Of a DNA stretch of 64,000 bases, positions 29,318-32,047 are shown one piece after another. How positions within the stretch are numbered: the stretch's first letter is position 1; each line of letters begins with the position of its first letter. The position numbers and the translations under genes are program-made. The notes below the pieces were generated by a model. The model saw only the letters and a list, made by a program, of their open reading frames with translations. It ran no database searches and was not told the origin of the DNA. This DNA comes from Hyphomonadaceae bacterium (lineage in GTDB: Bacteria > Pseudomonadota > Alphaproteobacteria > Caulobacterales > Aquidulcibacteraceae), in the NCBI GenBank assembly GCA_022841905.1, contig JALHQO010000008.1, forward strand, positions 124,001-188,000, written 5' to 3'.

Positions 29318-30508
29318 ATGAGGGTCTTTGTCTCCTCCACGCGCGTGGACGCCGATTGGACAGATCAGCTCTGCGCGTTTCTGAGCGATCGCGGCTTCAA
29401 GCCGATGCTCGACGGTCGCGACATCGGCTCGGCCGACGTCTGGAAGCACCGCGTGAAAACGCTGCTAAGTTCGGTTGAAGCCGTCGTGTTCGTGCTGACA
29501 GACGATTCCGCTGAGGCGATCGAATGCGAGTGGGAGATTTCCGAGGCTCAGCGGCAGGGCAAGCGCGTAGTGGCTGTGTTGCCGGCCGCACTCCAAGTTC
29601 GCCCGCCGGACTTTCTGGCCGAGCGCAACTTTATCCTGTTCTACTCGGATCCGGTCGCGCCGGAGTCGGGCTTCTATGCTGGGCAGAAGCGGCTTGAGGC
29701 GGCGCTGCGTCAAAAGCCGCTGAACGTGCGTGTGACCCGGCCGATCGCGCCGCCAACACCGCCGCCGCGCGCTCCGCCACCGCGCGAGCCGATCATGATG
29801 CCGTACGATCCGGCATACCTCGCGCCACCGCAGCGGCGCGGTTTCCGCATGCCATGGTTTCGCCTGGGGCTGCTCGCTGCCGTTGGCGGCGCGAGCTACT
29901 ACACCGCGACAAACGAGCAATTTCGCTCCGGATTGGGCACAGCATGGACGGAGGCGTCGGCTGTCTTGCTTGCGCCAGCTGCGGACGAGGACGACGCGCC
30001 GCCGGACGGGAGCCGTGTCTCCGCGCATGATTGGACGCCGGAGAGCCCCTTGTTCGCAGGCGCCAGCGGCGCCAATGCGCGCAACTATCCGCTTCCCAGC
30101 GCAACCATCCTTCAAGAATTGCCAGCGGCTGCGCCGCTTAACATCAATGGCCGCATGGAAGTGCAAGGCGATTGGTGGTTCCGCGTCGTGCTTGAGGACG
30201 GACGCGTTGGCTTTGTGCACGAGGAAGCGACCGCCAGCCGTCCAACGGCGCCGAGCACGGCGGGCGTTACGCTGATCGACCCGGGTGTCGCTGTGCGCGC
30301 GGGCCGCGCAGGCGCCAACGTGCGCGCCTCTCCTGGCCTTCGCGCGCGGCGCCTCGTGCGCGTCGAGGCCGGCGCTGCGTTGACGGTGACCGGCAGAACG
30401 CAAACCGGCGGGCATCGCTGGTATCGCGTGCAACTTGGCAACGGCCAGACCGGCTGGGCGCGCGACGATGTGTTGGTGACCGCCGAGGGCCAGCCGGTTC
30501 GGATTTAG
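29318..30508 (+). CDS. TIR domain - transmembrane - double bacterial SH3 protein
   Basis: Residues 1-135 form a TIR-like domain: MRVFVSSTRVDADWTDQLCAFL, a DGRDI turn, VVFVLTDDS, then a C-x-W-E helix in which E73 fits the catalytic Glu of NAD-cleaving TIRs. A Pro-rich linker follows (143-175), then one membrane helix (about 181-197) and, on the far side, two SH3-like repeats (about 240-310 and 322-390; second with NVRASPG, WYRVQL, GQTGWAR). This predicts cytoplasmic TIR and periplasmic SH3. It is oriented against its neighbours: divergent from pdhA and overlapping the ftsB stop by 4 bases. Function and substrate are unknown. Confidence 0.8.
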   Translation: MRVFVSSTRVDADWTDQLCAFLSDRGFKPMLDGRDIGSADVWKHRVKTLLSSVEAVVFVLTDDSAEAIECEWEISEAQRQGKRVVAVLPAALQVRPPDFLAERNFILFYSDPVAPESGFYAGQKRLEAALRQKPLNVRVTRPIAPPTPPPRAPPPREPIMMPYDPAYLAPPQRRGFRMPWFRLGLLAAVGGASYYTATNEQFRSGLGTAWTEASAVLLAPAADEDDAPPDGSRVSAHDWTPESPLFAGASGANARNYPLPSATILQELPAAAPLNINGRMEVQGDWWFRVVLEDGRVGFVHEEATASRPTAPSTAGVTLIDPGVAVRAGRAGANVRASPGLRARRLVRVEAGAALTVTGRTQTGGHRWYRVQLGNGQTGWARDDVLVTAEGQPVRI

Positions 30509-30795
30509 TCGAGAGCGAAGACGATCTCTTCGGTATCGCCGGCCGCCAGCGTCACGCGCGCGCGTTCGTCCAAGTAATCCAGATCGAGCGTCTCGGGGCG
30601 CAGCCGCGCAGCACGGGCTTCCAGTTGCGCGCGTTCTTCTTCGAGGCTGGCGATCTGCTCTGAAAGCACGCGTTCCTGCGCTTGCAGATCGACGTACGCG
30701 ACGAGGCCCTGCCGGCCCGTCACGGCGTGTGCGCCGAGATAAAGAATGGCCGCGCCCAGACCGATGCTGAGCGCCGTGGCCCCATGTTTCGACAT
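30505..30795 (-). CDS. ftsB: Cell division protein FtsB (septum formation initiator family)
   Basis: FtsB is a bitopic protein that joins FtsL and FtsQ at the division site. The 96-residue protein has one N-terminal membrane helix (about 7-28), then a coiled coil (about 38-68, VLSEQIASLEEERAQLEARAARL), then the DLDYLDERARVTL segment typical of the DivIC/FtsB family. Gene order near eno and pdhA is that expected for alphaproteobacterial ftsB, although accessory genes separate them here. The region upstream is exceptionally rich in GANTC sites. Confidence 0.9.
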   Translation of the reverse strand: MSKHGATALSIGLGAAILYLGAHAVTGRQGLVAYVDLQAQERVLSEQIASLEEERAQLEARAARLRPETLDLDYLDERARVTLAAGDTEEIVFALD

Positions 30796-30824
30796 CGTAC
30801 CGACCCTCGAAGAGCCGGCAAAAT

Positions 30825-30966
30825 GAGTCCCGATCCTTAATGAAATCTTTACGGAATCGCGAGGCTGCGGAACAAAACGAGTCCAAAGAATCGTGTTGAA
30901 TCAGCTATTTAGGAAAATGGCGCAAGATGTGGTGGGGCGTTGATGCGCCGGACTCCACATGGAGTC
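30825..30966. promoter_or_regulatory. ftsB promoter region with seven GANTC (CcrM) sites
   Basis: GANTC occurs at 30825, 30854, 30879, 30888, 30898, 30951 and 30962 (first bases). In DNA of this composition about one site per 300 bases is expected. GANTC is the target of CcrM methylation, which with GcrA times transcription in the Caulobacterales cell cycle. The last two sites lie in the inverted repeat GACTCCA-CA-TGGAGTC (30951-30966). The region lies directly before ftsB and after the stop of the ATP-grasp gene. Confidence 0.6.
30837..30851. promoter_or_regulatory. Near-consensus CtrA box upstream of ftsB
   Basis: TTAA (30837-30840), seven bases, then TTTA (30848-30851) is one mismatch from the CtrA consensus TTAA-N7-TTAA. 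It lies 42-56 bases before the ftsB start and inside the GANTC cluster. Alone it would be weak, but the two signals together suit a cell-cycle promoter. Confidence 0.4.
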
Positions 30967-31015
30967 CCTCTCGTGCGCTCAAAATATTTTTGCAGTTGGA
31001 GGCGAAAAACGGGCC

Positions 31016-32047
31016 TCAATCCTCTTCCGCCGCCCCCGCGCGGGCGATGGCGAGCGAGAGAATGCGGCTGATCAGGTCGGAATAGCTGATGCCGTCGTGC
31101 TGCGCCGACTGGGCGTACTCCTCGCTGCGCGCGATTTCGGGATTGGGGTTGGCCTCGATAAAGTACGGCACCCCGTCCCTCCCGAGACGGAAATCGACGC
31201 GTGCATAGCCGTCGAGTTCAAGCACTTTGCAAATGCGTTTCGCCGCTTCGCGGATGCGGGTGGAGAGAGCCGGTGAGAGATCCTTGGCTGGGCCGTCAGT
31301 GACGCCGCAGCGCTCCTGATATTTGAGATCGTGCTTCACCTTCTGCGTGGCGATCGGCAGCGCGCCCGGCGCCAAGCGCTCGAACTCCAGCTCCCACACC
31401 GGCAGCGCCCGCAGGCGTTCGTTGCCGAGCACGCCGACATAGATCTCGCGCCCATCGATGTACTGTTCCGCGATCGCGGGCGTGCCGACATGCTCGTGAA
31501 TGAACTTCACCCGCTCGGCGAGCTTCTCGTCATTATCGACGACCGCCGCTTGCGAGATCCCGAGCGAGCCGTCTTCGATCGTGCTCTTCACGATGAGCGG
31601 GAAGCGTAGCCGCGCCGGCCGCTTCACTTTGCGGCCCATCGGAAACACCACAAAGGCCGGCGTGGGTATCCGGTGATATTTGAGCAGCTTCTTCGAGAGA
31701 TCCTTGCCCTGCGCCAAAATCTGGCCGCGCGGATTGCAGCCCGTGTACGGCACGCGCATGAGTTCGAGGAAGCTCGCGATATTCTGGCCGTAGAGCGCCT
31801 CGCCGTGAAACTCGATCAGCAGATTGAAGACGACGTCGGGCTTCCAATTGTCGATCTGGTCGCGGATGGGTTTCAGATCGTAGGCGACGCCGAGCGTGTG
31901 CACGTCGTGCCCGAGCTGCTTCAGCGTGCTGATGACGTCGTACTCGGTCTTCAGCTTGTAAACGTCGCGCTCGCTGACGCCTTCCATGCTCTCGGGCGGG
32001 ACGCCATCGGGGTGGCACAGGACGAGGACGCGCAAGGGTTGCTTCAT
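31016..32047 (-). CDS. ATP-grasp protein, D-alanine--D-alanine ligase-like
   Basis: The 343-residue protein follows the Ddl layout: an N-terminal pre-ATP-grasp domain (VLVLCHPDG through VVFNLLIEFHGEALYG), a central ATP-binding segment (PLIVKSTIEDGSLGIS) and the C-terminal metal-binding VDFRLGRDGVPYFIEANPNPEI, followed by GISYSDLISRIL as in Ddl. Ligation of a carboxylate to an amine via an acylphosphate is expected, but the substrate need not be D-Ala. It overlaps the upstream metallopeptidase gene by 4 bases. A dedicated Ddl normally lies in the mur/fts cluster, which is not in this window, so this is probably an additional ligase. Confidence 0.82.
   Translation of the reverse strand: MKQPLRVLVLCHPDGVPPESMEGVSERDVYKLKTEYDVISTLKQLGHDVHTLGVAYDLKPIRDQIDNWKPDVVFNLLIEFHGEALYGQNIASFLELMRVPYTGCNPRGQILAQGKDLSKKLLKYHRIPTPAFVVFPMGRKVKRPARLRFPLIVKSTIEDGSLGISQAAVVDNDEKLAERVKFIHEHVGTPAIAEQYIDGREIYVGVLGNERLRALPVWELEFERLAPGALPIATQKVKHDLKYQERCGVTDGPAKDLSPALSTRIREAAKRICKVLELDGYARVDFRLGRDGVPYFIEANPNPEIARSEEYAQSAQHDGISYSDLISRILSLAIARAGAAEED

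Follow-up and report, generated by a model that had tools for sequence, protein, structure and literature searches.

A dense, conserved GANTC cluster upstream of ftsB occurs as two promoter types within a genus of Caulobacterales

We found that the division gene ftsB is preceded by an exceptionally dense cluster of GANTC sites, that this cluster is conserved across the genus, and that it occurs as two distinct promoter types. We consider it fairly probable, judging from the sequence, that transcription of ftsB is controlled through CcrM methylation and that its promoter has been selected for many GANTC sites. In the window, the 64,000-nucleotide stretch of DNA that was analysed, ftsB lies on the reverse strand at 30505-30795 and encodes a DivIC/FtsB septum formation initiator of 96 amino acids (Pfam PF04977, E 3.8e-10, 39.9 bits against a cut-off of 28.9). 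Upstream of it is a 220-bp gap, the presumed promoter region (30796-31015, reverse strand), which is kept in the genus. The initial annotation had reported seven GANTC sites in 142 bases at 30825-30966, and we found all seven at the positions it gave, all of them within this gap.

The density of the cluster was compared with several backgrounds. When the gap was shuffled 20,000 times by mononucleotides and 20,000 times by dinucleotides, seven sites never arose; the maximum was six in both, with means of 0.84 and 1.19 sites per shuffled gap, respectively. The window as a whole contains 76 GANTC sites where 305 are expected from its composition, the latter corresponding to 0.68 per 142 bp. In a sample of the same genome, comprising the window and 60 stretches of 20 kb (1.264 Mb, 36% of 3.56 Mb), 1,547 sites were counted, which is 1.22 per kb or 0.17 per 142 bp. 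The earlier estimate of about half a site was therefore roughly right by composition but too generous for a genome that avoids GANTC, and this genome-wide avoidance makes it unlikely that seven sites came together by accident. No other 142-bp stretch in the 1.264 Mb sampled is as dense as the ftsB cluster, the runner-up having five sites. We also counted sites in 894 upstream regions of 200 bp and found none in 659, one in 184, two in 45, three in six and more than three in no region; these regions precede mechanically called open reading frames of at least 150 amino acids, some of which may not be genes, and ftsB with its 96 amino acids is outside the set. This comparison with other upstream regions had been proposed as a check, and the ftsB cluster stands out in it. 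We conclude that the cluster is real, exceptional within the sample and kept by selection.

We searched 30 genomes of the genus, including the one from which the window comes, and found ftsB in 29, the exception being a genome that is 57% complete. Among named genomes, the best PdhA matches (four loci, 89-90% identity) come from metagenome-assembled genomes that are labelled Hyphomonadaceae. A cluster of 3-8 GANTC sites was found upstream of ftsB in all 29, so the loss in close relatives that might have spoken against the initial annotation was not observed. The cluster is present regardless of whether the next upstream gene encodes enolase, an ATP-grasp protein or a TIR (TIR-SH3) protein. In the window this gene is a D-Ala-D-Ala-ligase-like ATP-grasp gene on the same strand as ftsB (31016-32047, reverse strand; Pfam PF07478), found at this place only in L001 and L002 among the genus and sister loci L001-L030. 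A gene with TIR and SH3 domains lies between ftsB and pdhA in the window (29318-30508), and in several relatives related TIR genes are located upstream of ftsB, pointing away from it; the eno-ftsB-pdhA interval gives the impression of a hotspot for insertions. Taken in 4-kb steps, cumulative GC skew rises to a broad, shallow maximum at about 32-40 kb of the window, which is too local to place a replication origin or terminus.

Based on the positions of the sites relative to the ftsB start, the promoters can be grouped into two types. Type A has sites near -171, -160, -107, -97, -88, -63 and -34, and type B near -60, -50, -33 and -17. The two types are mutually exclusive in the genus, type A being found in 15 genomes (that of the window included) and type B in 14. 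The sister genus G036 is also of type A, and with it included type A promoters have 5-8 sites within 200 bp of ftsB; type B promoters have 3-5. Leave-one-out profile scores over -105 to -15 were 36.7-88.1 bits against the own type and at most 7.2 bits against the other. We then searched 61 genomes with the profile models R1 (type A) and R2 (type B). Each of the 29 genus members gave one strong match, of a single type and beside ftsB; since the matched sequences were themselves training sequences, the informative part is the absence of strong matches to the other model and elsewhere. In the window, the type A core promoter module lies at 30813-30906 on the reverse strand and is the sole R1 match in its genome (E 2.5e-27, with the sequence in the R1 training set). 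Two more distant loci, L036 and L038, are likewise of type B, and both had contributed to the training set. No strong second copy of either module was detected in the 61 genomes with the profile models. The remaining matches were weak (E 0.002 to 0.09, in searches with stricter filters that scored only part of the first-look candidates), and the best of them (E 0.002) was in G052, a genome of another family whose ftsB was not found in the ftsB search.

By profile comparison, types A and B resemble each other mostly in two segments, at about -200 to -95 and at about -47 to -1, and little between them, and the type B loci L003, L007 and L013 show weak type A matches running through the core. Three relations that the modules might have had were set aside. 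A repeated cassette was rejected as blastn within the genome gave only short, weak matches besides the locus itself (E 1.27 or worse). Ancestral tandem promoters of which one was lost were rejected as no genome is strong for both models and the types align at the same positions. An inverted relation of the two cores, GTTTTGTTC against GAACAAAAC, had E 0.045 over 15 bp only and was dropped as chance.

Within type A, most sites are retained in register. In the window, the site at -34 (30825-30829, GAGTC on the forward strand) occurs in all 15 type A members of the genus with an invariant N, as is the site at -88 (30879-30883, GGACTCGTTTTG on the ftsB strand). The site at -63 (30854-30858) is found in 14 of 15. 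Those at -97 (30888-30892; N is T, C or G depending on the species) and -107 (30898-30902) are in register in 11 and 12 of 15, respectively. All 15 have a site at -159 to -161, in the window at -160 (30951-30955), and 12 have the one at -171 (30962-30966). These last two form an inverted repeat, GGACTCCA-CA-TGGAGTCC, as had been annotated. One side of the repeat is gone in L005 and L023 without a matching change opposite, so the repeat probably follows from the palindromic nature of the two sites and is not a kept hairpin. Both loci lack the -171 site but have gained a GANTC at -149/-150; there is thus some turnover of sites while their number is kept. An RNA element was also considered for 30400-31300 and rejected, with no Rfam match up to E 1 and a repeat that is one-sided in two loci. 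Further upstream, an AT-rich block at 30981-30991 (reverse strand; sense AAAAATATTTT) is kept in type A, and type B has one like it. No sigma-70-like promoter was matched by simple consensus upstream of ftsB.

The conservation of individual letters bears on what the sites are for. In type A, the GA and TC letters of the sites have a conservation of 0.924, N of 0.857 and other columns of 0.760; in type B, the corresponding values are 0.973, 0.839 and 0.697. Shared ancestry alone, by which a conserved promoter would have handed down GANTC sites that are neutral, could explain that the region is alignable and conserved within each type. However, both types are clustered though their cores are barely alignable, conservation of the type A promoter equals or exceeds that of the ftsB coding DNA (0.75 mean identity where ftsB has 0.65-0.70), the GA and TC letters of the sites stand above the other columns, and GANTC is avoided elsewhere. 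We regard neutral inheritance as very improbable. The type B promoter is somewhat less conserved than ftsB.

A second alternative is that the GANTC letters are parts of the sites of another factor, for example one recognising GGACTC, and that methylation is incidental. GGACTC is found on one strand at 54 of 107 type A sites compared with 189 of 1,540 background sites and 0 of 57 type B sites, and the type A consensus contains GGACTCRTTTTG at both -88 and -34. Three type A sites (-171, -88 and -34) and one of type B (-50) never vary in N, which suggests that some letters may be part of different binding sites. The stretches that separate the GANTC sites, GTTTTGTTCCGC and GTAAAGATTTCATTAAG among them, show the same degree of conservation as the sites; together with the invariant N, this indicates that more than methylation is at work. 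Nevertheless, N varies at six of the 11 aligned sites (-107, -97 and -63 in type A; -60, -33 and -17 in type B) with GA and TC mostly kept, although three of the six, two of them in type A, vary in a single genome only. Type B retains GANTC amid different surrounding letters, and the genome-wide avoidance of GANTC also argues against incidental sites. We therefore think it unlikely that another factor accounts for the cluster.

The preferred reading, control by CcrM methylation, calls for the methylase and a factor that reads its product. The genome of the window contains a single gene whose product has the CcrM RAMA domain (E 1.3e-18, in a 362-amino-acid frame with a DPPY motif) and one GcrA gene (PF07750, E 2.1e-53). 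A RAMA-domain gene was found in 27 of 30 genus genomes (misses G003, G012 and G015) and GcrA in 28 of 30 (misses G012 and G021). Additional GcrA-like matches above the family cut-off were observed in G018, G049, G054 and G058. The sequence context preferred by GcrA is YGAKTCK (PMC7987155). This context was found at 369 of 1,540 background sites (24%), at 8 of 107 type A sites (7%; 1 of 7 in the window), and at 41 of 66 type B sites overall, 36 of 57 (63%) in the 14 genus members, counts that are not independent because the sites are inherited. Type B sites thus match the promoters at which GcrA acts as a sigma-70 cofactor, with their YGAKTCK motif, whereas type A sites, those of the window included, depart from it. 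GcrA is therefore doubtful as the reader in the type to which the window belongs, and the avoidance of YGAKTCK in type A also agrees with the alternative of another factor. The proposal that this is a CcrM/GcrA cell-cycle promoter stands with respect to the cluster and the presence of both genes, but not firmly with respect to GcrA. Type B sites are probably read by GcrA, and type A sites may be read by a GcrA with altered preference or by another factor.

A CtrA-like box, TTAA-N7-TTTA, lies among the sites at 30837-30851, with one mismatch to TTAA-N7-TTAA. The box exists as annotated, and in the window alone it is at chance level (1 found versus 1.62 expected), but all 16 type A promoters have it, those of the genus at -56/-57 and that of the sister genus G036 at -66. 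In type B, a one-mismatch box at -55 to -57, with GATTC inside the 7-bp spacer, is present in 6 of 14 genus members, and such a box was not found in the other 8. The support for the box comes from its conservation in type A and from the direct control of ftsB by CtrA in Hyphomonas neptunium (PMC7200025). The position of the box amid the sites in every type A promoter, and with a GATTC in its spacer in six of type B, also fits a hypomethylation or sequestration device, in which a bound protein (CtrA or MucR-like) would compete with CcrM and set a heritable on/off or delay state. Dam-dependent switches are a precedent for heritable on/off states based on methylation. FtsB is essential in well-studied bacteria, which makes a true on/off switch unlikely, and the eight type B promoters without the box are also at odds with such a device. 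Protection of GANTC sites by proteins, some of it by MucR1/2, has been described in Caulobacter (PMC7987155). On balance we judge a device of this kind improbable, clearly more so than binding by another factor.

The distribution of the two types does not follow phylogeny. On a tree of CcrM, GcrA and PdhA, built for the 26 genomes having at least two of the three proteins, promoter type requires at least nine changes, a rough count as the deep nodes are weakly supported; shuffled labels gave a mean of 8.8, with 68% at or below nine. A clade of mixed type (G024, G003, G007, G004, G027 and G029) has 97% support, and a tree of FtsB and PdhA also mixes the types. GcrA of the type B genome G007 is 98-99% identical to GcrA of the type A genomes G003 and G029. 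Between the close relatives L018 (type A) and L016 (type B), identity is 30-40% from -206 to -31, compared with 60-82% from -589 to -232 and 65-94% from -30 to +406. That the flanks are alike but the promoters unlike points to promoter exchange. Alignment scores of type A against type B are near the level of shuffled sequences at every ftsB distance. The type B locus L006 has a 53-bp A-like stretch upstream of the core (21.6 bits), as a recombinant might show, with type A matches of similar score over longer stretches in L007 and L011. These findings are most simply explained by recombination of a short segment of the promoter. Horizontal regulatory transfer is the exchange of promoter alleles between strains. 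The ftsB locus resembles it in having two promoter versions at one gene with matching flanks and a distribution off the phylogeny. It differs in that the exchange would cross species boundaries within a genus, would concern a division gene regarded as essential, and would involve versions that are both dense in GANTC.

We infer methylation of the sites, activity of the promoter, a reading factor and timing at ftsB as parts of the following scheme. CcrM would methylate the ftsB promoter sites late in the cell cycle, and passage of the replication fork would turn the fully methylated sites half-methylated. RNA polymerase, together with a methylation-sensing factor and CtrA at the box near -56, would then fire ftsB at a given time, which would tie the supply of divisome protein to replication. 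The sensing factor would probably be GcrA in type B, and in type A either a GcrA with altered preference or some other factor. The core module would exist in two versions, which close relatives would swap for one another at an identical position. The data suggest in this way that methylation helps to time cell division. Only tentatively, as a more specific version that we hold to be rather unlikely, do we propose that ftsB is run by one of two interchangeable GANTC-dense modules that move between species by recombination, B being read by GcrA and A by another methylation-sensing factor or a GcrA of changed preference. If true, a swap of modules would re-time septum formation relative to replication with the FtsB protein untouched. 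Two exchangeable promoters at one gene would be a natural experiment, with the same gene and methylase and a different site layout, and comparison of A with B would test how the number and context of methylated sites set division timing.

CcrM control of division genes is already known, and the unexpected part here is the two exchangeable versions of the ftsB promoter. In Caulobacter crescentus, CcrM activates ftsZ and mipZ (PMC3708114). The ftsB locus is similar to these promoters in being at a division gene, with conserved promoter GANTC and CcrM present, and type B shares the Caulobacter letters CGACTC at about -33 in 8 of 14 genus members. That study deals with one conserved CGACTC motif in each Caulobacter promoter, compared with 3-8 GANTC at ftsB here, and its bioinformatic search reported ftsZ, mipZ and ftsE and not ftsB (PMC3708114). 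Of 96 Caulobacter cell-cycle start sites that have GANTC no more than 50 bp away, only 11 have more than one (PMC4287350). In the open-licence literature that we searched, no link of GANTC, CcrM or GcrA methylation to ftsB or the septum formation initiator was found among the matches listed; supplements were outside this search, and an entry in a table is possible.

We looked at the same genes in the genus of the window. Upstream of ftsZ there are 0-3 GANTC sites in 15 usable of 18 loci, and upstream of mipZ there are none in 9 of 12 usable of 17 loci (among L313-L335; genus loci only), the loci left out being those where the motif or start was not placed (3 of 29 for ftsZ, all from the genus, and 5 of 17 for mipZ). 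Among ftsB, ftsZ and mipZ, the three division genes checked, ftsB bears by far the strongest GANTC signature. The mostly absent mipZ sites differ from Caulobacter mipZ as described in PMC3708114, and this weak signature fits the published rewiring of the CcrM circuit. The region upstream of ccrM resembles that of ftsB, with clustered sites (3-5 in 17 of 18 usable loci, usually four, in L112 and relatives; one locus with a single upstream base was left out) and frequent GGACTC (24 of 67 sites). Differences from ftsB are that ccrM is not a division gene, that only one layout was seen in the loci read, and that the ftsB models were unmatched there at E 0.1 or better. By eye, ATGGTTAAC lies beside the ccrM upstream sites in 16 of 18 loci. 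The ccrM cluster is conserved and adjoins a TTAAC half-site, as self-regulation would need.

Further points count against the CcrM reading, besides the invariant N, the conserved stretches between sites and the missing match to a sigma-70-like promoter. Type A sites avoid YGAKTCK, and the ccrM upstream sites are near background for it (19 of 67); the second densest cluster in the sample, in L164, is not at a known cell-cycle gene; and clusters this large are not general in the order. In 15 ftsB regions of the order and family outside the genus, 0-3 GANTC sites were counted, so clusters are not the rule there; 26 ftsB matches were available outside the genus and its sister, of which 20 were taken and five lost as tblastn did not relocate ftsB. 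In a second set, ftsB was relocated in 46 of 80 pdhA loci, five of which duplicate genus members. At least four sites in a 150-bp window were found upstream of ftsB in 5 of the 41 non-genus loci, namely L082 (seven), L046 (six), L038 (five), L036 (four) and L041 (four). The best cluster elsewhere had at most three sites in each of the 46.

The second densest stretch (L164:2634-2827, five sites) is located directly after a GNAT-like gene, identified by eye, downstream of alaS, and extends into the start of an open reading frame without assigned identity. In L082, from Ferrovibrio, a distant alphaproteobacterium, the seven sites upstream of ftsB have another spacing and neither promoter model matches them; this cluster is possibly an independent gain.
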